DNA of 64,000 nt from Metabacillus endolithicus. GTDB taxonomy: Bacteria > Bacillota > Bacilli > Bacillales > Bacillaceae. The DNA lies in assembly GCF_023078335.1 (NCBI RefSeq), contig NZ_CP095550.1, forward strand, positions 3,268,001 through 3,332,000, written 5' to 3'. The number at the start of each line of letters is the position of its first letter. Position 1 is the first letter of the stretch. The position numbers and the translations under genes are program-made. A model generated the notes under the pieces. That model was given only the letters and a program-made list of their open reading frames with translations. It was not told the origin of the DNA and did no database searches. Shown piece after piece: positions 1 to 64,000 of this stretch.

Positions 1-512
1 GTGAGCTTTTACAAATGGAAGAGTTTGTGAACGAAATTCTTATTCTAGCAAATGCTCATCTTGGAACTAAACGTGAACAAAATAACATCATAGACCTCCT
101 TCAAGAGGTTTTACGTACAAATGAGGAGTTAAGCAGAATGCTTAATATTACTTTTTGTATCAAGTGTCATGCTAGCCTATCTATACCATGTGATTTAAAT
201 CAAGTTAAGCTTGTTTTTCAAAATTTGATTAGTAATGCAATTGAATCAATGCCAAAAGGTGGCATGATTCATATTGAGATTGGGATAGATGATGAACGAT
301 ATTTGTATATTGCGGTGGCTGATGAAGGTGTAGGCATTTCACCAGAACGAATTCCTACGCTTGGAGAACCTTTTTATTCTAATAAGGAAAAGGGTAGTGG
401 ACTTGGGCTGATGATAAGCTATAGAATCATCCAAAATCATAAGGGGAAAATCTTTTTTACTAGTGAACTTGGTAAAGGAACAACAGTTAAAATATTATTA
501 CCTTTAGAATAA
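1..512 (+). CDS. C-terminal part of a sensor histidine kinase (5' end outside window)
   Basis: The reading frame is open from base 3, so the gene is cut by the window edge. What remains is the end of the dimerisation region (LLQMEEFVNE, typical of sporulation-type kinases) and an ATP-binding domain: N box around NLISNAIESMPKGG, G1 box DEGVGIS, and G2 region EPFYSNKEKGSGLGL. It would use ATP to autophosphorylate a histidine lying upstream of the window. The last 100 residues closely resemble the end of the CheB-CheR-kinase fusion at 1185-4757, so the two are paralogous in this part. The substrate and sensory input cannot be seen. A strong terminator follows immediately. Confidence 0.9.
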   Translation, partial: ELLQMEEFVNEILILANAHLGTKREQNNIIDLLQEVLRTNEELSRMLNITFCIKCHASLSIPCDLNQVKLVFQNLISNAIESMPKGGMIHIEIGIDDERYLYIAVADEGVGISPERIPTLGEPFYSNKEKGSGLGLMISYRIIQNHKGKIFFTSELGKGTTVKILLPLE

Positions 513-1184: not shown

Positions 1185-4100
1185 ATGTCAAATGCATCAA
1201 ATGGGCAATTAGAAAAGGAACATGAAAAGGGTGATCTTGATACACCTTATGTTGTAGGAATTGGAGCCTCAGCTGGAGGTCTTGAAGCCATTGAGCAATT
1301 TTTCCAAAATATGAAATCTAACATAGATGCAGCATTTGTTGTTGTTCAACATTTATCTTCTAAGTATAAAAGCTTTATGCCGGAACTACTTGTAAAATAT
1401 ACTAATATGAAAGTTTTGGTGGCAAAGCAAGGACTGCAGGTTAATCCTAAAACTGTCTATTTATGCCCACCTAATCACTATATTACAATAAATAATCAAG
1501 GGCGAATACATTTAGAGACATATCATGAAAGTCAAGTAGTGAATTATCCTATAGATGCGTTCTTAACATCTATTTCTTTATATGCAAAAAAGAAAGCAAT
1601 TGGTGTGATCTTGTCTGGTAAAGGGACAGATGGAACAAAAGGGTTAAACGATATTCATGAAAGAAACGGACTTTGCATTGTTCAAAATGAAACGGCAAAG
1701 TATATGGATATGCCCGAAAGCGCAATCAAATCAGGTGTTGGAGACTATATCATTAATCCTTCAGTGATGCCTGAGCATATTCAAAATTATATAGAAACAA
1801 AGCTCGTGGAGTTTAAAGAAACAACATTAAAACAAGTGTTAATGATGATTCATAAAAAAAGTGGTATTGATTTTACCATGTATAAGAAAAACACTGTTAT
1901 CCGACGAATTGAACGTAGAATGAGTTTATTGGAAGAATCATTCCTTAATCTTGAAGACTATAAAAACTATTTGCTGGCAAACCCTAGGGAGATTCGTTAT
2001 CTTCAAGAAGATTTACTTATTGGTGTGACTCACTTTTTTAGGGATACTGATGCTTTTTACTATATGCAGCAGACACTTATTCCATCAATGGTTGATGAGA
2101 ACTTACAGCGTGGCCGAAATAAAATGAGAATATGGGTAGCAGGATGCTCATCAGGTCAAGAAGCATATTCTTTAGCTATTTTATTTAATGAAGAGCTAGA
2201 AAAACGAGAAAGTGATATGGATTTGCAAGTGTTCGCAACAGACATTGACCGTGATGCTGTTAAATTCGCAAGTCAGGTTTGCTATTCGGAGCAAATCGTA
2301 TCAATGATCCCAAAACATCTGCTAATTAAGTACTTTGATAAACAAGGCAGCGATTATCAGGTAAAAAGAGAAATTAGGCAAAAAATTGTATTTGCACCTC
2401 ATAATATGACGAAGGATTCTCCATTTGTTAATTTAGATATGATAAGTTGTAGAAATGTCATGATTTATTTTCAAACGGAGCTACAGCAAAGAGTGTTGTC
2501 ATTGTTTCACTTTGCACTAAAGGAGAAGGGCTATTTATTTTTAGGTCCAAGTGAAACAATCGGCAAACTCTCAAATCTTTTCTCCTCTGTTAATAGCAAG
2601 TGGAAAGTTTTTAGTAATCAGGTTTCTGATAACCAACATTTTTCCCAAGCATTACTAGCGCCTAAAGAGGTTTCTGGAGATAGTGAGAGAAGGGGTACGG
2701 AACATTTACGTGACACAAACAGGTTTCAACATCCTGATGAACTCTATTATTCACTTATGGACGATTTGTTACCTCCGTGTATTGTCATTAATGAGCATAA
2801 TGAAGTGATTCTTTCTTCCGGGAATGCAGGGGAATATTTAAACCTGCCAAAGGGAAAAGTTAATTATAATATTTTTAATATGGTTCCAACAAACCTATCT
2901 GTTGCCATTGGAACAGCCATAAAAAAGGTTCGTGAGGAATTAAGAGAAATTAAATATAAGAATCTTTTAATCAACAAAAATGAAAGCAAACAGGTAAAAT
3001 TAGTTGTTAAACCTTTAGAAAATGTAAGAAAGGGCTATGTTGCATTATTTATAAAAGACCATATGCCTGACTCTACTACAATAATTAAAGCTGATTCTAT
3101 GACATTTGATCAGGATTCTGCCTATAATCAAAGGATTTTTGACTTAGAGCAGGAGCTTTACTATACGAAGCAAAGTCTTCAGACAACAATTGAAGAATTA
3201 GAAACATCAAATGAAGAGCTTCAGTCAACGAATGAAGAATTAATTGCTGCAAATGAAGAACTTCAAAGTACAAATGAAGAAATGCAATCCGTTAATGAAG
3301 AATTAATTACAGTTAATTCTCAGTATGAAAAGAAAATTATTGAACTTACTGACCTTAACAATGATATGGACAACTTGTTAATTAACACCAATATCGCAAC
3401 CATTTTCTTAGATAAGAAATTAAATATTAAGCTTTATACTCCTGAAGTTATGAAACTTTTCCATGTGATTGATCGTGATATTGGACGTCCGATTTTTCAT
3501 ATATCACATCGACTAGAATGTGATACATTAATGGATGAAATCCAAGATGTGTTAATGACAACAAATTCAATAATAAAAGATTTACCTGCGAAAGATGGAA
3601 AGTGGTATAGTGTCAAAATCATGCCTTACCGCACTAGTGACAATATCGTGGATGGTATTGTGATGACATTTATTGATATCACAAAAATTAAGAAGGTAAA
3701 CCGAGAGCTTCAATTAAGTATGCAAGCTATTGAGCTTAGTCCGGCAAATACAGTATTTACAGACTTCCAAGGGAAAATAGAGTATGCGAATAGTAAATTT
3801 GCAGAACAACTTGGGTTAGAGGTTAAGGATTTAATCGGACGTAAGTTAAAAGATATCTATGCAGAATATTATATTGATAGTGATTTTGATTCTCATTGGA
3901 AAAAGGTGCGTGCTGGTGAAAAGTGGTCTGGTGAAATATCCTATACAGCTCGCGATGGAAAACAATATTGGGAAAATCTCGCATTAATACCTGTAGAAAA
4001 TGACGATCATGATGTTGTTCAGATTTTACGAGTTGGAGAAGATGTAACAAATAGAAAAAGCTCAGAGCAAATGCTAATTAAATCTGAAATGCTGTCAGCA

Positions 4101-4757
4101 ATTGGACAGTTGGCAGCTGGCATTGCGCATGAAATAAGAAATCCTCTCACTTCTTTAAGAGGCTTCCTACAGCTAATGATCCAAACCAACACATATCGTA
4201 AGGAATACGCTGAAGTAATGATGACTGAGTTTATCAGGCTAGAAGAGATCATTAATGAATTTTTAGTCCTATCCCGACCAAAGACAGCGGCTTTTCAGGA
4301 TGTAAATATTAATAAAATCATTCAAGATGTTTCAAAAATATGGGAAACTCAAGCCATTCTTAATGACGTTACAATCGAAACATATAATGATCCATTTATT
4401 TTTACCATCCAAGGAATTGAAAATGAGTTAAAGCAGGTTTTTATTAATATTGTGAAAAATGGAATTGAATCGATGGAAGGACGACCAGGAAATTTAAAGA
4501 TTGAAACACGTAAACTGGATAGTGGAGAGGTACTTATCCGCTTTGAAGATAAAGGAAAAGGTATTCCAAAGGAACAACTTGAAAAAATGGGACAGCCTTT
4601 CTACACAACAAAGGAAAAAGGAACAGGTTTAGGTTTAATGGTTAGCTTTAAGATTATTGAGAGTCATAATGGGAAAATCGTCTTTTCAAGTGAATTAGAT
4701 AAAGGCACAACAGTTGAAATTACGTTACCTTTATCTAACTCAGTCGAAGCGGTCTAA
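1185..4757 (+). CDS. CheB-CheR-PAS-histidine kinase fusion protein
   Basis: An 1190-residue cytoplasmic signalling protein. In order: a CheB-type methylesterase domain (about 20-205; GIGASAGG holds the candidate nucleophile Ser29, and SGKGTDG a catalytic Asp); a CheR-type methyltransferase (about 215-480; SAM loop VAGCSSGQEAYSL); a coiled coil rich in NEELQSTNEEL repeats (about 660-725); two PAS regions; a HisKA domain with His982 in AHEIRNPLTSL; and a HATPase domain ending in KGTGLGL. No receiver domain is present. The ATG has a good AAGGAGG. Its 3' end overlaps the opposing PAS gene by 18 bp. The output partner is unknown; the kinase end resembles Spo0-type kinases. No membrane segment is visible. 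Confidence 0.9.
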   Translation: MSNASNGQLEKEHEKGDLDTPYVVGIGASAGGLEAIEQFFQNMKSNIDAAFVVVQHLSSKYKSFMPELLVKYTNMKVLVAKQGLQVNPKTVYLCPPNHYITINNQGRIHLETYHESQVVNYPIDAFLTSISLYAKKKAIGVILSGKGTDGTKGLNDIHERNGLCIVQNETAKYMDMPESAIKSGVGDYIINPSVMPEHIQNYIETKLVEFKETTLKQVLMMIHKKSGIDFTMYKKNTVIRRIERRMSLLEESFLNLEDYKNYLLANPREIRYLQEDLLIGVTHFFRDTDAFYYMQQTLIPSMVDENLQRGRNKMRIWVAGCSSGQEAYSLAILFNEELEKRESDMDLQVFATDIDRDAVKFASQVCYSEQIVSMIPKHLLIKYFDKQGSDYQVKREIRQKIVFAPHNMTKDSPFVNLDMISCRNVMIYFQTELQQRVLSLFHFALKEKGYLFLGPSETIGKLSNLFSSVNSKWKVFSNQVSDNQHFSQALLAPKEVSGDSERRGTEHLRDTNRFQHPDELYYSLMDDLLPPCIVINEHNEVILSSGNAGEYLNLPKGKVNYNIFNMVPTNLSVAIGTAIKKVREELREIKYKNLLINKNESKQVKLVVKPLENVRKGYVALFIKDHMPDSTTIIKADSMTFDQDSAYNQRIFDLEQELYYTKQSLQTTIEELETSNEELQSTNEELIAANEELQSTNEEMQSVNEELITVNSQYEKKIIELTDLNNDMDNLLINTNIATIFLDKKLNIKLYTPEVMKLFHVIDRDIGRPIFHISHRLECDTLMDEIQDVLMTTNSIIKDLPAKDGKWYSVKIMPYRTSDNIVDGIVMTFIDITKIKKVNRELQLSMQAIELSPANTVFTDFQGKIEYANSKFAEQLGLEVKDLIGRKLKDIYAEYYIDSDFDSHWKKVRAGEKWSGEISYTARDGKQYWENLALIPVENDDHDVVQILRVGEDVTNRKSSEQMLIKSEMLSAIGQLAAGIAHEIRNPLTSLRGFLQLMIQTNTYRKEYAEVMMTEFIRLEEIINEFLVLSRPKTAAFQDVNINKIIQDVSKIWETQAILNDVTIETYNDPFIFTIQGIENELKQVFINIVKNGIESMEGRPGNLKIETRKLDSGEVLIRFEDKGKGIPKEQLEKMGQPFYTTKEKGTGLGLMVSFKIIESHNGKIVFSSELDKGTTVEITLPLSNSVEAV

Positions 4758-5375
4758 TAGAGGCATTAAAGTTAAATAAAAATCTATCGAAGAGCGCAGC
4801 TCATTTAATTCATCAATAATAACTTCATAGTGAGCACTTTTGCCACTTTCAATGATATCGGGGCGAAGGAGGCTGAGTAAATCCTGTATTTTCTCAAGCT
4901 TCCTTGGAAGGTCCTTCATATTATCAGATGAACTTATTAAATTATATATATCTGAATCTGTTAGAAACGGCTGAAACAATGAAATAATTTCTTTTCGATG
5001 ATGCTGTTCTAGTTGATTTTGGTCAGTCACTGTTAATTGTTCTCGAAGCATATTAACCTGGTGGCTGACTTTTTTTAGATTTTCCCTTAAAGGAATACTT
5101 ACCACATACAGTAACCCTTCATGATTTTGTTTAATGTGTAATTCGAATAATTCTAATGAATTTCCAATTGTGATCATATTAGCTTCAAATTTTTCCTTCT
5201 CCTTTGTGGATAGGAAATATTGGACTTTGTTTCGGCTTTCTTGATCAACAAGATCAAGGAAGTTTTTCGATTTAGAGAAAATTTGATGTGACATTAAAGA
5301 GGAATCGATCACATCAAGCTGTGAATTTAAAATAAAAACAGGTACAGGTACGTTTTCAAGAGCGTACATTTGCAC
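4740..5375 (-). CDS. PAS-domain protein paired with a cobalamin-binding protein
   Basis: A 211-residue soluble protein. The N-terminal 110 residues look like a PAS fold (VPVFILNSQLDVIDSS, then NFLDLVDQESR). The rest is predicted helical and polar, with no STAS, kinase or DNA-binding motif that I recognise. The segment NFLDLVD-x-ES[RK] is shared with the PAS-STAS protein at 63089-63832. Each gene directly follows a cobalamin-binding gene, so this is one half of a duplicated two-gene module. A GTG start at 5375 is 6 bases after AGAAGG; an ATG at 5369 is the alternative. Its 3' end overlaps the kinase fusion gene tail to tail. Function is inferred only as signal relay. Confidence 0.65.
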   Translation of the reverse strand: MQMYALENVPVPVFILNSQLDVIDSSLMSHQIFSKSKNFLDLVDQESRNKVQYFLSTKEKEKFEANMITIGNSLELFELHIKQNHEGLLYVVSIPLRENLKKVSHQVNMLREQLTVTDQNQLEQHHRKEIISLFQPFLTDSDIYNLISSSDNMKDLPRKLEKIQDLLSLLRPDIIESGKSAHYEVIIDELNELRSSIDFYLTLMPLLDRFD

Positions 5376-5394
5376 ACCACACCTTCTTCAAAAG

Positions 5395-6051
5395 TTAAGC
5401 TTCAATCCCAATAAGTTGGCTATTAATAAATGCCGTTAAGTTTTCCAGATTAGGAACAATGAGTGTTTGATTTGATATAAACTTTGATAAATCATATTTT
5501 TCTGCTAGTCTACTTCCGAGTATAATCGTTGGCTTATGATCTAACATCTCAAGTGTTTGAATGTATTCTGGTAGATTTTTCAGGTGATGTGAAACTGTTA
5601 CTGATAAACAAATCACATCAGGCTTAGATTTATTTGCATAGTAAATGGCATGTTGTAACGGTAAATTAGGACCTAAATATTTCACATTCCAAGAGTTTTG
5701 TTTAAAAATTGATGCTGCCATTTTTATTCCAACATAGTGCTCTTCACCTTCAATACAGAATAGCATAACCTGCTTTTGACTTCTTATCACTTGCTCATCA
5801 TTCTGGTCTAAGTGAAAATCGAGTTTTGTTAAAACATAATCAGCTGTTCCTGTAGCTAAATGTTCATCAGCAACACTTATTTCATCAATTTCCCATAGGT
5901 AACCTATATAATATAATGCTTCTTTTATCACATTTTCATAGATGTAGAGGGAGGTAAATCCTTCATGTAAAAGCTTCTCAATTAATTTAAATGAACTTAC
6001 AGTGTCACCAAGTAAAAGAAATTGAGCAAACTTTTTTGTTAAATCAGTCAT
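5395..6051 (-). CDS. CarH-like cobalamin-binding sensor protein without DNA-binding domain
   Basis: A 218-residue protein with a helical cap (1-85) and a Rossmann-type B12-binding domain (95-215). The cap contains W53 followed by nine residues and E63-H64, an exact match to the W-x9-EH motif of CarH-type adenosylcobalamin photoreceptors. EEHYVG (H105) fits the D/E-x-H-x-x-G motif that supplies the lower cobalt ligand, and SVTVS and LGS follow at expected places. CarH's MerR domain is absent. The start is the ATG after AAAGGA; an upstream in-frame ATG at 6114 has no better site. It is 19 bp upstream of the PAS gene, so the two are probably co-transcribed. Light or B12 sensing is inference. Confidence 0.75.
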   Translation of the reverse strand: MTDLTKKFAQFLLLGDTVSSFKLIEKLLHEGFTSLYIYENVIKEALYYIGYLWEIDEISVADEHLATGTADYVLTKLDFHLDQNDEQVIRSQKQVMLFCIEGEEHYVGIKMAASIFKQNSWNVKYLGPNLPLQHAIYYANKSKPDVICLSVTVSHHLKNLPEYIQTLEMLDHKPTIILGSRLAEKYDLSKFISNQTLIVPNLENLTAFINSQLIGIEA

Positions 6052-6114
6052 GCATGTCAATCCTTTCTGATTTAATCTACCTCCTATTATACTCTTTCCT
6101 TCATTGTTCTTCAT

Positions 6115-6597
6115 CTTTTAATAGGAAGAAAATAATGGTGAGTTTCGTTATAGTTTCGTAAAGTTATAAGACACAATAGGCTACAAAAGATCAGTTATAC
6201 TTTCCCTATTTTCGAGCCTCTTAAACTAAATTTTATAAAATAGAGTTGTGCGATTCTACATCTAATACCTTAATTAAAACTTATCGGGCTTAATTTGTGG
6301 CGAAAATGTGGACGTATTTAGATAAATTCCATAATTTGAAATATACATCTTTTCTCAATTTGTTTTTTGTGATACATTAATTATTGTAGTTGATAATCAA
6401 TCTCAACAGCTGTGAATCATAGATAAATACACGTTCTTTTTTTTATCATTTAATGATAATGATTATCATATGTTAATAAAGTGTGAAATGGCGGCTCTTG
6501 GTTTGTCATACTTGTATTACATATTTGCTAGATTCAACTTGGAATAATAATTGATTCAATTGTTGTACTAAGAATAAATAGGTTAAGAGGGTTTCAA
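6115..6597. other. 483-bp intergenic region, divergent promoters
   Basis: AT-rich spacer between the cobalamin-sensor operon and the iron-uptake operon. Apart from the Fur box listed separately, and a weaker partial match TGATAAT-C-AATCTCA at 6391-6405, I see no gene or RNA structure. Confidence 0.5.
6454..6468. promoter_or_regulatory. Fur box upstream of yclN
   Basis: TGATAAT-G-ATTATCA is an exact match to the Bacillus 7-1-7 Fur operator. It lies 130 bp before the start of the iron-siderophore permease gene, so iron repression of the whole transporter operon is expected. Confidence 0.88.
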
Positions 6598-7551
6598 ATG
6601 AGATTATGGATGCTAGGAATTGCAACTATCGTCCTGTCTTTTATTTCGCTTTTCATCGGAGCAATTGATATTACACCAATGGATTTGCTTAATTGGGATT
6701 CAGACGAAACACATATTTTCCTAATAAGCCGAGTTCCACGATTAATTGCCATTATTTTAGCGGGGGCAGGTATGAGTATTGCCGGCTTAATTATGCAGTC
6801 TTTAAGTCGAAATAAGTTTGTATCACCAACAACTGCTGGGACATTAGACGCAGCAAGGCTAGGTATTTTAATATCAATGCTATTTTTTACGAATGTCACA
6901 TATACCCAACAAGTTATTTTTAGTTTTGCTTTTGCGTTAGCTGGAACATTCGTATTTATGCAGATTTTGGATCGTATAAAATTTAAAGACGCTATTTTTG
7001 TCCCATTAATTGGAATTATGTATGGAAATATTTTATCTTCCATTACAACTTTTTTAGGGTACGAAGCTGATCTACTTCAAAACCTCTCTTCCTGGCTCAT
7101 GGGGAGCTTTACTTTGATTATTTCTGGTCGCTATGAACTTTTATATGTTAGTATTCCAGCTGTTATTTTAGCTTACATTTATGCAAATAAATTTACAGTA
7201 GCCGGAATGGGAGAAGATTTTGCGAAAAATCTAGGCTTAAGTTATAAGCTGATTCTAAATATTGGTCTTATTCTTGTTGCAATTATTTCGACAACAGTTG
7301 TTCTCACTGTGGGGGTTATTCCATTTTTGGGACTAATTGTACCAAATATTGTTTCTCTTTATTTAGGTGATAATTTGCGCAAAACAATACCGCATACCGC
7401 GGTATTAGGGGTTGTTTTCTTATTAATCTGTGATATTTTAGGGCGGATCATTATTCACCCTTATGAGATTCCAGTTAATGTAACAGTGGCAGTGATAGGC
7501 AGTGCGATCTTCTTAACGATGCTACTTAGGGGGAGAGCATATGCGAAATAG
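6598..7551 (+). CDS. yclN: Petrobactin-type iron-siderophore ABC permease YclN
   Basis: A 317-residue FecCD-family inner-membrane permease with eight or more hydrophobic helices. The sequence around LIMQSLSRNKFVSPTTAGT resembles YclN, one of the two permease subunits of the B. subtilis petrobactin importer. It should form a heterodimer with the product of the next gene and couple to the ATPase YclP. Its 3' end overlaps the next gene by 11 bp, consistent with translational coupling. The ATG follows a modest AAGAGGG. An exact Fur box lies upstream. Substrate identity is by homology only. Confidence 0.88.
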   Translation: MRLWMLGIATIVLSFISLFIGAIDITPMDLLNWDSDETHIFLISRVPRLIAIILAGAGMSIAGLIMQSLSRNKFVSPTTAGTLDAARLGILISMLFFTNVTYTQQVIFSFAFALAGTFVFMQILDRIKFKDAIFVPLIGIMYGNILSSITTFLGYEADLLQNLSSWLMGSFTLIISGRYELLYVSIPAVILAYIYANKFTVAGMGEDFAKNLGLSYKLILNIGLILVAIISTTVVLTVGVIPFLGLIVPNIVSLYLGDNLRKTIPHTAVLGVVFLLICDILGRIIIHPYEIPVNVTVAVIGSAIFLTMLLRGRAYAK

Positions 7552-8494
7552 TACAAAACTGATTTTATTGGCAGCTATAGCTATTGTATGTATCTTGTTT
7601 TATGGCTTTTATGATATAAAAGGGGGCTTTGATTACGCTTTTCCAAAGCGTATGCTCCGAGTTTCGGCGATGATTGTAACAGGTATTGCCATTTCTTATT
7701 CAACTGTTGTGTTCCAGACAATCACGCATAATCGAATTTTAACACCGTCTGTTATGGGACTTGATTCGATGTATCAAGTCGTACAAACATTAATTTACTT
7801 CTTTGCGGGATCTATGTCAGTTTGGGTGTTGAATAAATACTTAAACTTTGGCGCAGCAATTCTTGCAATGGTAGTGTTTGCCATGCTTTTATATCGTTTT
7901 TTGTTTAGAGCTGATAAGCATCCAATCTATTTTCTTCTATTAATAGGGATGATTATAGGTACACTTCTTGGAAGTTTGGTAACATTTCTACAAGTATTGA
8001 TTGATCCAGTTGAATATTTAAGTCTTCAAAGCCGTTTGTTTGCAACCTTTACTAACGTAAAGGCTGAGTTATTGTTTATCTCAATAGGTATTCTATTCTT
8101 TGCGTTTCTTTATGGCTACCTCATTATGGGGAAGTTGGATGTTATGTCACTTGGCCGGGAAAATGCTATGAACCTTGGTATAAACTATGACAGTATGGTT
8201 ATGAGGATTTTAATTTTATCTTCTGTTTTAATCGCAACATCTACAGCGCTTGTTGGACCAATTACATTTTTTGGACTAATTGTTGCAAATCTTTCCTATC
8301 AATATTTGGTCTCATATAAACACTCTATTCACATAATAGGTGCGAGTTTAATCAGTATTATTGCACTTGTTGGTGGACAATTCCTTGTGGAGCATATCTT
8401 TGAATTACGCACAACGTTAAGTGTTATTATTAACTTTATTGGTGGAATTTACTTTATTTATCTATTACTTAAGGAAAGTAGGGCAGCAGGATGA
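7541..8494 (+). CDS. yclO: Petrobactin-type iron-siderophore ABC permease YclO
   Basis: The second 317-residue FecCD-family permease of the operon, with about eight to nine membrane helices and the conserved region TFFGLIVANL near the cytoplasmic coupling loop. The family normally works as a pair, which matches the adjacent yclN. The gene starts inside the end of yclN and its own stop overlaps the ATP-binding gene by four bases (ATGA), so the three genes form a tightly coupled unit. Nothing in the sequence looks truncated. Confidence 0.87.
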   Translation: MRNSTKLILLAAIAIVCILFYGFYDIKGGFDYAFPKRMLRVSAMIVTGIAISYSTVVFQTITHNRILTPSVMGLDSMYQVVQTLIYFFAGSMSVWVLNKYLNFGAAILAMVVFAMLLYRFLFRADKHPIYFLLLIGMIIGTLLGSLVTFLQVLIDPVEYLSLQSRLFATFTNVKAELLFISIGILFFAFLYGYLIMGKLDVMSLGRENAMNLGINYDSMVMRILILSSVLIATSTALVGPITFFGLIVANLSYQYLVSYKHSIHIIGASLISIIALVGGQFLVEHIFELRTTLSVIINFIGGIYFIYLLLKESRAAG

Positions 8495-9258
8495 TAGAAA
8501 TCAAAGGATTAACAAAGCAATTTGGTAAAAAGCCTGTTGTAGAAGATGTTACTGTCACAATCGAGCCTGGAACTATTACATCGTTTATAGGGCCAAATGG
8601 TGCTGGTAAGTCAACTCTTCTTTCTATGGTGAGTCGCTTATTAGAAGCAGATACAGGTGAAGTACTACTAGATCAGAACAATGTGAAAAAGTGGAAGTCG
8701 TCAGAATTTGCAAAGAGAGTATCTATTTTAAGGCAAGCAAATCATCTTAATGTTCGATTAACAGTTCGTGAGCTTGTTGCGTTTGGACGCTATCCGTATT
8801 CAAAGGGGCGTTTAACAGCTGAAGATGAAACATTTGTTGATCAAGCAATTGATTATATGAATTTAGCAGATATGCAAGACAAATTTTTAGATGAATTATC
8901 AGGTGGTCAGAAACAACGTGCATTTATTGCAATGGTCATTGCTCAGGATACGGATTACGTCCTGCTTGATGAGCCTTTAAATAATCTGGATATGAAGCAT
9001 TCAGTTCAAATTATGAAAATATTACGCAGATTAGTAGATGAACTTGGAAAAACGGTTGTAATCGTTTTGCATGACATTAACTTTGCATCTGTTTATTCAG
9101 ATCGTATCGTTGCATTGAAAAATGGTAGATTAATGAAAAATGGGCCGACTCATGAAATCATTAATTCTGATGCCTTACGTGAAATTTATGATATGGATAT
9201 TCCTGTTCAAGAGCAGAATGGATGCAGGATTTGTGTTTATTTCAATTCACATACGTAA
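8491..9258 (+). CDS. yclP: Iron-siderophore ABC transporter ATP-binding protein YclP
   Basis: A 255-residue ABC ATPase energising the YclNO permease. Walker A is GPNGAGKST, the signature motif LSGGQKQR, and Walker B YVLLDEPLNNLD followed by an H-loop histidine in VLHDIN. Length is normal for FepC-type ATPases. Translation is coupled to yclO by the ATGA overlap. The binding protein gene follows after 217 bp and has its own Fur-controlled promoter, so permease and ATPase can be expressed separately from the binding protein. Confidence 0.92.
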   Translation: MIEIKGLTKQFGKKPVVEDVTVTIEPGTITSFIGPNGAGKSTLLSMVSRLLEADTGEVLLDQNNVKKWKSSEFAKRVSILRQANHLNVRLTVRELVAFGRYPYSKGRLTAEDETFVDQAIDYMNLADMQDKFLDELSGGQKQRAFIAMVIAQDTDYVLLDEPLNNLDMKHSVQIMKILRRLVDELGKTVVIVLHDINFASVYSDRIVALKNGRLMKNGPTHEIINSDALREIYDMDIPVQEQNGCRICVYFNSHT

Positions 9259-9286
9259 GACATAAAATTAATCATAAGCTACCTAG

Positions 9287-9305
9287 AGAAATCAATTAGA
9301 TTTCT
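9287..9305 (+). other. Possible attenuator hairpin between yclP and yclQ
   Basis: AGAAATC-AATTA-GATTTCT forms a 7-bp stem that extends with wobble pairs into flanking CC/GG. The downstream tract is only moderately T-rich, so this is a weak terminator or processing hairpin at best. Confidence 0.3.
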
Positions 9306-9380
9306 TTGGGTGTTGCTTCTGAATTTTTTCTATATTATTGAAATTTTAGAAATAAATACAAAATAAATATTGGAAAGTAG

Positions 9381-9445
9381 TTGACTTAAAAGAATTAATA
9401 GATCATAATGATAATCGTTATCAATGATAATGATAATCATTAACA
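9381..9445 (+). promoter_or_regulatory. yclQ promoter overlapped by tandem Fur boxes
   Basis: TTGACT (9381-9386), a 17-base spacer and CATAAT (9404-9409) make a good sigma-A promoter. From the -10 onward there are overlapping 7-1-7 Fur-like sites with one mismatch each: 9409-9423, 9425-9439 and 9431-9445. Fur bound here would block initiation. Confidence 0.8.
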
Positions 9446-9475
9446 ATATAAATTATAAGAGGGAGAGATACACAA

Positions 9476-10525
9476 ATGAAAAAGACAAATTTATTCATCG
9501 CATTGTTAGCAGCTATGGTATTAATGCTAGCTGCTTGTGGTTCTAACGAAGAAGCTTCAACAGAACCAGCGAAAAAAGAATCAACTGAAACAGCTGCAGC
9601 TGATGATCAAGCAGAAGAAACTGCAACTGGGGAAGAAGGTACTACTTATCCATTGACTGTATCTCCAACAGTTGCATCAGTTGAAGGTGAAGAGTCAGGT
9701 TCAATTAATTTTGAAGATGTAGAATTTGAAAGTATGCCTGAAAAAATTGCTGTATTCGATTATGGTTTCTTAGATACATTAGATGCATTAGGTGTTGAAG
9801 GAATTGTTGGGGTTGCGAAGGATTCTACTCTACCGGCTCACCTTGAAAAATATGCTTCTGATGAATATAAAAGTGTTGGTGGTTTAAAAGAGCCTTTACT
9901 TGAAGATATCGCTGAAATGGCTCCTGATGTTATCTTTATCTCAGGCCGTCAGTCAGCTTATTATGAAGAACTAAAAGAAATTGCTCCAGTTGTATTTGTT
10001 GGTACTTCTCAGGATGACTACTGGAACACATTCTTATCATCAGTAGATTTAGCAGCAAAAATGTTTGATAAGGAAGCAGAGGCTGAAGAATACCTTGCAA
10101 AATTTGATTCAGCTCTAGAAGAAATAAAAGCTTTAGCCGGAAACTATGAAACTTCACTAGTAACGATGTATAACGAAGGTAAATTAGCTGGATTCGCAAC
10201 AAATTCACGTTATGGTTACATTTATGACGTTTATGGATTTAAACCAGTAACAGAGGATATCGAATCTTCTTCTCATGGTTCTAATTTCGGATTTGAGGCA
10301 ATCTTAGAATTCAATCCACAAGTATTATTTGTTATTGACCGTACAGCAGCTGTTGGAGGAGAGTCTAATATTGATGCTGATATGGAAAATGATATTGTAA
10401 AGAAAACAGAAGCTTATAAAAATGGAAAAATTGTTTACTTAGATGGTCCACTATGGTATCTAAGTGGTGGAGGCTTACAATCTGAGCTTGCAAAAATTGA
10501 TGAAGTGTTAGCTGAATTAAAATAG
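9476..10525 (+). CDS. yclQ: Siderophore-binding lipoprotein YclQ
   Basis: A 349-residue extracellular substrate-binding protein of the FecB/YclQ family. A signal peptide ends in the lipobox LMLAACGS, so the mature protein is anchored by a lipidated Cys. A long acidic, Ala/Glu/Thr-rich linker (about 22-55) precedes the two-lobed binding domain, which carries FDYGFLDTLDALG and PDVIFISGRQ. It should capture ferric petrobactin-like catecholates and deliver them to YclNO. It has its own promoter under tandem Fur boxes and its own terminator. The linker makes it somewhat longer than the roughly 317-residue B. subtilis protein. Confidence 0.88.
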   Translation: MKKTNLFIALLAAMVLMLAACGSNEEASTEPAKKESTETAAADDQAEETATGEEGTTYPLTVSPTVASVEGEESGSINFEDVEFESMPEKIAVFDYGFLDTLDALGVEGIVGVAKDSTLPAHLEKYASDEYKSVGGLKEPLLEDIAEMAPDVIFISGRQSAYYEELKEIAPVVFVGTSQDDYWNTFLSSVDLAAKMFDKEAEAEEYLAKFDSALEEIKALAGNYETSLVTMYNEGKLAGFATNSRYGYIYDVYGFKPVTEDIESSSHGSNFGFEAILEFNPQVLFVIDRTAAVGGESNIDADMENDIVKKTEAYKNGKIVYLDGPLWYLSGGGLQSELAKIDEVLAELK

Positions 10526-10534
10526 TTGATAATG

Positions 10535-10587
10535 AAAAGGATTGTCTAAATTGGTAGTGAAAGCTACCTATAGACAGTCCTTTTTTG
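10535..10587 (+). terminator. Terminator of yclQ
   Basis: A stem pairing AAAAGGATTGTCTA with TAGACAGTCCTTTT, with an inner GGTAG/CTACC stem, runs into a T-run. Confidence 0.88.
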
Positions 10588-10666
10588 GTTTTCCTTAATT
10601 AATTAAACGTTTGTTTAATATATCCTTGGTAATATCATACTAGTAGAAAATACAATGGAGGCTTCA

Positions 10667-11247
10667 ATGAAAACACTTATTATTTTAGCACACCCTAGTA
10701 AGAATAGTTTTAATGCTTCCATTTCTTATGAGGTGGAAATGCACTTAACCAATAAAGGTCATGAGGTAAGAGTTCGTGATCTATATGCATTAAAGTTTAA
10801 TCCTGTTTTGGAGGAAGATAACCACACTAATTTTTCACAAAATAAAATAACAGAAGAAATGATAGAAGAACAAAAGAACATTTTGTGGGCAGAAAACCTT
10901 GTGTTTATTTATCCAACGTGGTGGTGTGGTATGCCAGCAATATTAAAGGGATATTTCGATCGAGTGTTTACAAATGGATTTGCATTCAGATATGAGCATT
11001 TAAAGGGTGCTGAAGGTTTACTCAAAGAAAAAAATGTGTTGTGTTTCAAACAACAAGTCAGACGGAGGATTTTATGAAGCCAAACCAGCTTATCTCATCA
11101 ATGGAAACTTCTATGGATGTGGGAATTCTAGATTATTGTGGAATAAATGTTATTACACACAAATTTTTTTATTCTGTTCCAAATGTAGACAAGGAAGCAA
11201 GAGAAAAAATGCTTAAGGAAGTAAAAAGTATTGTAGATATTTTATAA
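10667..11247 (+). pseudogene. Flavodoxin-fold NAD(P)H quinone reductase, frameshifted
   Basis: Two frames together encode a complete roughly 190-residue Flavodoxin_2 (NQO/KefF-like) oxidoreductase. The first frame gives TLIILAHPSKNSFNAS and YPTWWCGMPAILKGYFDRV, the FMN-contacting region. After about residue 123 the family sequence continues in the -1 frame as VVFQTTSQTEDF ... GILDYCGINV. The switch falls at a run of seven A (11028-11034); eight A would restore one frame. The start is the ATG at 10667, five bases after GGAGG, rather than the ATG at 10655. It could be an inactivated gene, phase variation at the A-run, or a base-calling error. Confidence 0.75.
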
Positions 11248-63088: not shown

Positions 63089-63832
63089 TTACACAATAAA
63101 CGTTTTAATAGCTTCATGTAGATCTTTCATATACGAAGTACCTGCTTTAATACCTAATGTATTGATTAATCTAGCATGAGAAGGGGATAAACCAATCATG
63201 TAAGAATCTGTTCCCATTAACTTTAACTCAGAAACTAGTGTTTTGAATGTTTGAACACCCTCTTTCTTTATCTCCCCAATTCCATGAAAATCGAATAAAA
63301 CACGTTCTACTTGATTTTGGGAAACCTCGGATAACAAACGAATATGATTTAATCTAATCATATTCTCATTTAATTCGCCAAACAACGGAACAAGAACAAG
63401 CCCTTTTGTTAGACATATAAAAGGTGCTGATAATTCGATGATTTTTGTAAGAGATTGTTCAAGCTGCTCTTTCTTTTCTAACAATTCGAAGTTCGTTTCA
63501 GAAAGTCGTTTTCGATGAAGCTCCACAGTGTCCACGAGAGTTTGAATTTGGTTGTCTTGTTCTATACAGATTAAATGGCCTTGACTGTACTCCCAGTTCA
63601 CCTTAATTTGAAAAAGAGCATAAGGTGATTTTTGAGTTTTCATGACAATCTCTGTTGTGATGAGCTTTTCTGAAAGTAAAGATTGAGCTTTTCTCTTGCT
63701 TTCAATATCAACTAAATCTAAGAAGTTCAATGCTTCACCAAAGAGTTCGGAAGCGAAGTCAGAAGCTTCTAATATATTAAACTCTTGATCAATAGTGAAA
63801 TAAGGAAGCGGGATGTGTTTAATTGTAAGCAT
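63089..63832 (-). CDS. PAS-STAS (RsbR-like) protein paired with a cobalamin sensor
   Basis: A 247-residue soluble protein. An N-terminal PAS-like domain (about 1-105; IPLPYFTIDQEFNILEASDF, NFLDLVDIESKRK) is joined by a coiled coil (ETNFELLEKKEQLEQSL) to a STAS domain (about 140-245; ELSAPFICLTKGLVLVPLFG, LFDFHGIGEIKKEG). RsbR-type proteins have Ser/Thr after the D-x motif for phosphorylation; here it is His (DFHG), so the phospho-switch looks altered. The ATG at 63832 is eight bases after GGAGTG and five bases after the stop of the cobalamin gene. The frame open to 63871 overlaps that gene. Confidence 0.8.
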   Translation of the reverse strand: MLTIKHIPLPYFTIDQEFNILEASDFASELFGEALNFLDLVDIESKRKAQSLLSEKLITTEIVMKTQKSPYALFQIKVNWEYSQGHLICIEQDNQIQTLVDTVELHRKRLSETNFELLEKKEQLEQSLTKIIELSAPFICLTKGLVLVPLFGELNENMIRLNHIRLLSEVSQNQVERVLFDFHGIGEIKKEGVQTFKTLVSELKLMGTDSYMIGLSPSHARLINTLGIKAGTSYMKDLHEAIKTFIV

Positions 63833-63837
63833 GAAAA

Positions 63838-64000
63838 TTACACTCCTTGTATTGAATGTTGCGCGAGCCATCCTTGAAGTTCTGTTAGAGATGGAAATAA
63901 TTTTGTTTTGCTAGAGCAGTGCGAGGTAAAGTCATATGTTGATAGTAGACGACCTCCAACGATAACAGTAGGTTTATGTGGAAGATCCTCTAAGACGTTT
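63838..64000 (-). CDS. C-terminal end of a second cobalamin-binding protein (cut by window end)
   Basis: The last 53 codons of a minus-strand gene whose start lies beyond the window. The visible sequence NVLEDLPHKPTVIVGGRLLS matches EMLDHKPTIILGSRLAEKYD near the end of the CarH-like protein at 5395-6051. VIVGGR is the GG part of the B12-binding fold. Its stop is five bases before the PAS-STAS start, so the genes are translationally coupled, like the pair at 4740-6051. Confidence 0.75.
   Translation of the reverse strand, partial: NVLEDLPHKPTVIVGGRLLSTYDFTSHCSSKTKLFPSLTELQGWLAQHSIQGV

Follow-up and report, generated by a model that had tools for sequence, protein, structure and literature searches.

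Light-responsive cobalamin (B12)-binding proteins have been described in several forms. In CarH/LitR the B12 domains come with a MerR domain, and in the photocobilins (SasPcob and AbDPcob; PDB 8j2w, 8j2x and 8j2y) two B12 domains share the chain with a biliverdin-binding globin, and the output is a fused enzyme. When a standalone photocobilin was mixed with the separate enzyme domain, the authors read the outcome as control by contact (PMC10979010). In the AerR/PpaA-CrtJ/PpsR pairs of Rhodobacter, a B12 domain without a DNA-binding domain acts on a PAS regulator, and in a model the B12 domain sits on the long helix that follows a PAS domain of its target (PMC9144470). In BBAG-2/photoglobin clusters, a phycobiliprotein-related globin is encoded beside a B12-binding protein, with a heme oxygenase clustered or elsewhere in the genome (PMC10151467). 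Here, we analyzed a stretch of 64,000 nucleotides from Metabacillus endolithicus (contig NZ_CP095550.1, positions 3,268,001 to 3,332,000; hereafter the window), in which the gene for a standalone B12-binding protein precedes that of a PAS protein, the latter overlapping the gene of a CheB-CheR kinase. The features concerned are as follows:

5395..6051, minus strand: standalone B12-binding protein of the adenosylcobalamin (AdoCbl) photoreceptor type, 218 amino acids (translation, Pfam, solved-sequence and fold matches)
5893-5895, minus strand: codon of W53 (translation)
5860-5865, minus strand: codons of E63-H64 (translation)
5737-5739, minus strand: codon of H105 (translation)
4740..5375, minus strand: PAS protein with a degenerate stub resembling a dimerization and histidine phosphotransfer (DHp) domain, 209-211 amino acids (open reading frame (ORF), PAS fold, hhalign)
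1185..4757, plus strand: CheB-CheR-PAS-PAS-HisKA-HATPase fusion kinase, 1190 amino acids, His box AHEIRNP (Pfam; His box read)
4740..4757: tail-to-tail overlap of the kinase and PAS-stub genes, 18 bases (ORF table and sequence)

The open frame of the B12 gene extends to 6114, and the start residue of close relatives corresponds to the ATG at 6051. Pfam found B12-binding_2 (PF02607) at residues 6-74 and B12-binding (PF02310) at residues 95-179 and no other domains; the start falls inside the B12 cap, and the chain ends past the Rossmann domain, with no fused biliverdin-binding globin. The lack of a MerR domain and the W-x9-EH and lower-ligand residues (W53, E63, H64 and H105), all claimed in an earlier reading made from the sequence alone (the sequence-only reading), were thus confirmed. 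The published light-response signature (GxxW, EH, GxxH and GxxxP; SignatureFinder, PMC11796333) is complete in the protein as G50xxW53, E63H64, G102xxH105 and G127xxxP131. All four motifs are shared with the photocobilins, which likewise have two B12 domains with the W, EH and His residues in register, and B12 domains with these residues are also found in CarH/LitR. The nearest solved sequences were CtMerR (8jbs, E-value 1.2e-14) and SasPcob (8j2w, 3.1e-14), with Thermus CarH ranking behind them (2.5e-07); AerR was not among the 13 solved-sequence matches.

The sequence-only reading called the protein CarH-like, and on this point it has to be revised. His132 of CarH is the upper ligand of the light state (PMC10442372). 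At the equivalent position 54, directly after W53, the window protein has E, and the 134 family members having this position carry E (129), Q (4) or L (1) and never His. In addition, the NCBIfam CarH equivalog model scored 56.9 bits, far below its cut-off of 400. SasPcob also has no His directly after the Trp; its light state is ligated by water or hydroxide, and no bis-His switch is involved (PMC10979010). The B12 pocket is therefore expected to be photocobilin-like. Judged by its sequence, the protein is photocobilin/AerR-like rather than CarH-like. It could also be asked whether it is an ordinary corrinoid methyl-transfer protein (MtaC/MttC-like), since its Pfam domains are common to corrinoid proteins and the NCBIfam corrinoid-protein models match it weakly (best 30.4 and 29.3 bits). 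However, these scores are far below the cut-offs of 370 and 215, W-x9-EH is retained by nearly all family members, and no methyltransferase of that kind was recognized by eye among the neighboring frames, although no dedicated search was made. We consider this explanation highly improbable.

We infer from the signature and the homology that the protein binds AdoCbl and responds to light. According to PMC11796333, four signature-bearing proteins (TaCarH, CtMerR, SasPcob and AbDPcob) responded to green light, whereas HaAI-2E, which lacks the signature, bound neither AdoCbl nor methylcobalamin. These data argue against the alternative that the signal carried along the same PAS-stub-kinase route is not light but redox state, oxygen, or B12 itself, sensed by its form or by whether AdoCbl is available. 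The bilin-type globin gene added by many relatives (see below) would also be odd for a pure B12 sensor. On the other hand, the signature residues bind AdoCbl no matter which signal is sensed in the cell, CarH requires oxygen as well as light for its response (PMC10442372), and SigB-like sites upstream of some family members hint at a stress regulon. Such a B12 or redox sensor appears unlikely, yet it deserves to be kept in view.

The partner gene lies 19 bases downstream of the B12 gene, with an open frame from the GTG at 5375 and an in-frame ATG at 5369. The partner has a PAS fold in its predicted structure, and its PAS assignment is taken from that fold, since no domain of it could be named from Pfam, NCBIfam or PHROGs. 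The PAS domain is followed by a helix (residues 98-115). Pfam found no HisKA, HATPase or STAS domain, and no phosphoacceptor His box could be read in the tail. When the tail was compared with the DHp domains of the PAS-kinase partners found in relatives, hhalign gave a probability of 87.8 (E-value 3.3e-06). The stub thus looks like the DHp hairpin of a histidine kinase minus its phosphoacceptor and ATPase domain. The PAS protein in the same unit, as claimed in the sequence-only reading, is therefore real, and the degenerate stub has to be added to it.

To place this pair among its relatives, loci were drawn from the best matches listed in a search across the order Bacillales (397 genomes) and from further relatives, so that they are not a random sample. 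The 137 B12 ORFs include two loci twice (L069/L190 and L070/L184), leaving 135 distinct ones. A PAS-type partner, defined as a match at E-value 1e-4 to a profile built from one alignment of our own (A2), was encoded directly downstream in 130 of the 137, often overlapping the B12 gene. The partners comprised 89 PAS-STAS proteins, 17 PAS-histidine kinases, 22 proteins with PAS and a short degenerate DHp-like stub, and 2 truncated ones; the STAS and kinase kinds were assigned by profiles grown from few seeds, and Pfam was run on three of these partners besides that of the window, which is of the stub kind. The remaining 7 loci had no partner, and all 7 had a globin gene upstream. Among the 17 full-length PAS-kinase partners, 11 (L083, L147, L159, L160, L163, L168, L170, L179, L180, L181 and L196) lack the phosphoacceptor His box and form a pseudokinase series. 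A search of 60 relatives gave matches in 52, MetH-like and CarH-like ones included. In a phylum-wide search at E-value 1e-45, matches were found in 3 of 398 genomes, all three of the same class, and in a plasmid search all relatives (36 records) were below 60% identity. One plasmid, from Ilyobacter, carries a longer cobalamin-dependent protein gene followed by an overlapping GGDEF gene (L220 4536-6579), a similar pairing with another output.

The partner kind follows the tree of the B12 proteins. In a tree of 134 of them (one truncated row was left out), a kinase-linked side of 36 separated, with modest support (83/73), from the other 98, which were STAS-linked, partnerless or truncated. Eighteen of 19 stub-type rows fell in one group (99/86) that includes the window. 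The stub kind required 2 changes on the tree versus a shuffled mean of 18.1, and the kinase kind 2 versus 16.3. Distances between B12 proteins and between PAS proteins were correlated (r 0.74 over 125 pairs, and 0.91 among stub pairs).

The overlap of the kinase gene with the PAS-stub gene, also noted in the sequence-only reading, proved to be part of a wider arrangement. Within the roughly 3.5 kb per side searched at most loci, an ORF matching the CheB-CheR part adjoins 21 of 22 stub-type loci (19 of 20 without the doubly fetched ones) and none of the other 115. The one stub-type locus without such a neighbor, L082, was left out of the stub profile and represents a separate decay within the kinase side of the tree. 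In all 21 neighbors the CheR part was matched and the gene lies on the opposite strand, tail to tail, and the distance between the gene ends ranges from -30 to +310 bases. Most neighbors are CheB-CheR-PAS-kinase fusions: a kinase part was recognized in 17 of the 21, and CheB was seen in 7, 11 of the others being cut by the end of the fetched stretch. CheR is therefore the constant element of the neighbor. The 21 loci span eight families. Loci of one family have similar genes at the two nearest upstream positions, but these genes differ from family to family, so the stub unit and the CheR gene form a retained cassette. We found no description of a B12-PAS-stub-CheB-CheR cassette among the matches listed in a literature search.

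These results make it probable that, as the sequence-only reading proposed, the B12 protein is a sensor subunit signaling by protein contact, here with the co-encoded PAS protein, and the CheB-CheR kinase is a likely target. Beyond the homology, signature, PAS fold, gene pairing and cassette conservation established above by computation, we infer contact with the partner and control of the kinase. The reading we favor, which we judge to be evenly poised, is that an AdoCbl photoreceptor subunit acts via its PAS-stub partner on the CheB-CheR kinase, the B12-PAS-stub pair being the input module. The B12 protein would hold AdoCbl between the helix cap and the Rossmann domain; H105 would lie under the cobalt, and W53, E63 and H64 would surround the adenosyl group. 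Green light would cleave this group off, and the cap and the oligomeric assembly would change in response, much as they do in photocobilins and without the bis-His switch of CarH. The partner might detect this change where its PAS domain and the following helix touch the B12 protein, and the stub could relay it to the tail-to-tail kinase by docking on its DHp or CheR domain. In favor of this reading, the genome also encodes a cobalamin adenosyltransferase, though its gene is in two overlapping frames (G000:C1:787765-788255, where G000 is the window's genome). The AerR-CrtJ pair, in which a B12 domain is likewise matched with a PAS protein, differs in that CrtJ binds DNA, whereas the partner here is a PAS-pseudo-DHp protein adjoining a CheB-CheR kinase; and in contrast to the photocobilins, the output would be a PAS protein rather than a fused enzyme.

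Several observations count against this mechanism. First, the case for light sensing by the B12 protein is an indirect one. Second, structure prediction gave a mixed result: the best fold matches were light-responsive B12 domains, the solved AerR (7te2) among them, but the two domains were poorly arranged (root-mean-square deviation 9-10 Å), so the facing of W53, E63, H64 and H105 toward the cobalamin was judged by homology only. Model confidence was low for the post-PAS helix, where contact with the B12 protein is proposed. Third, the stub matched the DHp domains of the neighboring CheB-CheR kinases weakly (hhalign probability 18.9), and we therefore do not claim that it mimics that very DHp. 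At three loci of one genus, moreover, the neighbor is a CheR protein alone (328-350 amino acids; confirmed by Pfam in one of the three), and the kinase part of the neighbor at L175 was matched weakly or not at all. Finally, four same-genus relatives (G003, G005, G006 and G019; loci L183, L077, L070 and L084) have a damaged or absent B12 gene while keeping the stub and the CheB-CheR kinase: an internal TAA in G003, two TGA in G019, loss of the gene in G005, and H105Q with G127C, hence loss of the cobalt-ligand His, in G006. The stub-kinase unit is thus not always in need of the B12 protein, and the stub-kinase link can outlast the sensor.

Such decay, together with a stub lacking both His box and ATPase, would also suit a sensor-kinase remnant: a histidine kinase on its way to loss, of which the stub is left, beside a B12 protein that now has little function. 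However, the window's stub protein shares 70-74% identity with its counterparts in three other species, and parts of the tail are invariant among them. The unit also persists across the eight families, and 16 of 20 distinct stub-type members have all four signature motifs. We regard a mere remnant as very unlikely.

The output may also lie elsewhere than the neighboring kinase, for instance in a sigma-B stressosome. Three further features bear on this point:

63089..63871, minus strand: paralogous partner, a PAS-STAS protein of 260 amino acids (Pfam STAS; NCBIfam YtvA family)
63838..64000 (to about 64488), minus strand: start of the gene of the paralogous B12 protein, 216 amino acids, crossing the right edge of the window
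6201..6226, minus strand: SigB-like promoter sequence GTTTAA-N14-GGGAAA, upstream of the B12 gene (pattern scan, weak evidence)

The genome thus carries the stub pair, this STAS pair at the right window edge and a CarH-type gene (309 amino acids, near G000:C1:776591). Like YtvA (LOV-STAS) and the RsbR-type stressosome proteins, the paralogous partner has a STAS part, which matched the NCBIfam YtvA family model (E-value 7.4e-15, 55.2 bits, below the cut-off of 250). STAS genes in an rsbR-rsbS-rsbV-like operon order, presumably encoding a stressosome, occur at G000:C1:2852033-2854556. The SigB-like site also favors such a target. With a pattern that we take to be that of SigB, six locus classes were tested against control genes (21 of 546): sites were found at 6 of 20 stub loci (P 1.6e-4), 4 of 17 kinase loci (0.005), 4 of 38 STAS loci without hmo (0.07), 2 of 51 STAS loci with hmo (0.60), none of 7 partnerless and neither of 2 truncated loci. 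This enrichment is suggestive at most, and the fit of the site and the stressosome-like STAS operon to a stress setting is weak. The input of the window's module would come from a separate B12 protein and not, as in YtvA, from a flavin. On the other hand, the partner in the window, unlike YtvA and RsbR, has no STAS domain, and the stub kind is almost perfectly tied to a CheR-domain neighbor. A target other than the neighboring kinase therefore seems quite unlikely.

Many relatives have further genes directly upstream of the B12 gene. In 68 of the 137 rows, a globin-like gene (about 120 amino acids) and/or an ABM gene (about 101 amino acids) occurs in the fetched stretch, with the globin directly upstream of the B12 gene in 57. 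The globin profile matched the C-terminal globin of SasPcob (E-value 3e-4) and phycocyanin (0.006), and Pfam Phycobilisome was matched, over its cut-off, by one of three globins scanned (4.3e-05). Pfam ABM was found in both ABM proteins examined; the ABM protein matched the solved heme-degrading monooxygenases IsdI, IsdG and HmoB and stayed below the cut-offs of the NCBIfam heme-degradation models, and is a putative heme monooxygenase. When the 397 genomes, which are not independent of one another, were cross-tabulated, the globin occurred in 148 of the 171 genomes that have a standalone B12 match (E-value <1e-44) versus 12 of the 226 that have none (Fisher 7e-68); standalone B12 and CarH were parted by the E-value thresholds 1e-44 and 1e-50, with an alignment (A1) that contains the CarH of the window's genome. 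Small globins without a B12-protein match at E-value 1e-25 were seen in G109, G191, G216 and G307, all of one genus (g63), where the globin possibly has another partner.

Taken together, the globin, ABM and B12 genes of many relatives would correspond to a photocobilin split into separate proteins. In contrast to photocobilins, the globin of the window's genome is separate and at another locus, where adjacent ABM and globin genes occur (L205 7052-7767; G000:C1:1547051-1547766; the photoglobin-like gene, next to an ABM-type gene, at G000:C1:1547069-1547419). This globin may serve the window's B12 protein. In G040 and G045 the stub type is the sole standalone B12 match in the search of the 60 relatives, and the globin-ABM pair is still present, and in G053 the stub type occurs with no globin. 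Compared with BBAG-2 and photoglobins, the globin is likewise related to phycobiliproteins and photoglobins and encoded beside a B12-binding protein in many relatives, though unlinked in the window's genome. Differences are the heme enzyme, which here resembles IsdG/HmoB and has an ABM fold, and the last gene of the cluster, which encodes a PAS-STAS protein. Parts of the split arrangement may already be in print, as a survey of photoglobins by Schneider in 2022 reportedly found them associated with B12 proteins in many bacteria. A heme-enzyme-globin-B12-PAS/STAS operon in that order was not described among the literature matches listed.

On a broader and more tentative view, which we hold at somewhat below an even chance, Bacillus relatives would possess an exchangeable light-sensing system of separate proteins, in which an AdoCbl receptor plugs into PAS adaptors with varied outputs, a bilin globin and a heme monooxygenase acting in trans in many species. 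In the stub branch, a pseudo-DHp adaptor would control the CheB-CheR-PAS-kinase and so couple it to light or B12 state. If true, this would be a new output class for B12 photoreceptors (kinase or CheR control via a pseudo-DHp adaptor). CheB-CheR fusion kinases would gain a sensory input, Bacillus relatives would be responsive to green and perhaps red light, and optogenetics would have a natural set of parts that can be separated. Because a single receptor family is combined with three kinds of PAS output, the receptor-output link could also be tested directly by swapping parts between paralogues.

Other observations concern the genome and the local DNA. Some 11 kb separate the adenosyltransferase from the CarH-type gene. 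At G000:C1:3467269-3467808, an open frame of MetH type has 588 amino acids versus about 1150 in relatives; both the split gene and the short frame are possible sequencing frameshifts in the assembly. An Rfam scan of 4600-11000 found nothing, a sigma-70 scan did no better than shuffles (11 versus a mean of 9.8), and one terminator-like site was found (shuffled mean 0.9). A link to B12 import through the transport genes at 6598-10525 was weighed and set aside, as they resemble what we take to be an iron-siderophore set. An oxidoreductase-like frame at 10655-11077 (plus strand; 140 amino acids versus 196 in L068 7012-7602) reflects an assembly frameshift or a broken gene. Another histidine kinase, whose C-terminal part is encoded at 15-512 (plus strand), stands in tandem with the CheB-CheR kinase; its counterpart in the relatives L069 and L077 is a GAF-PAS-histidine kinase.

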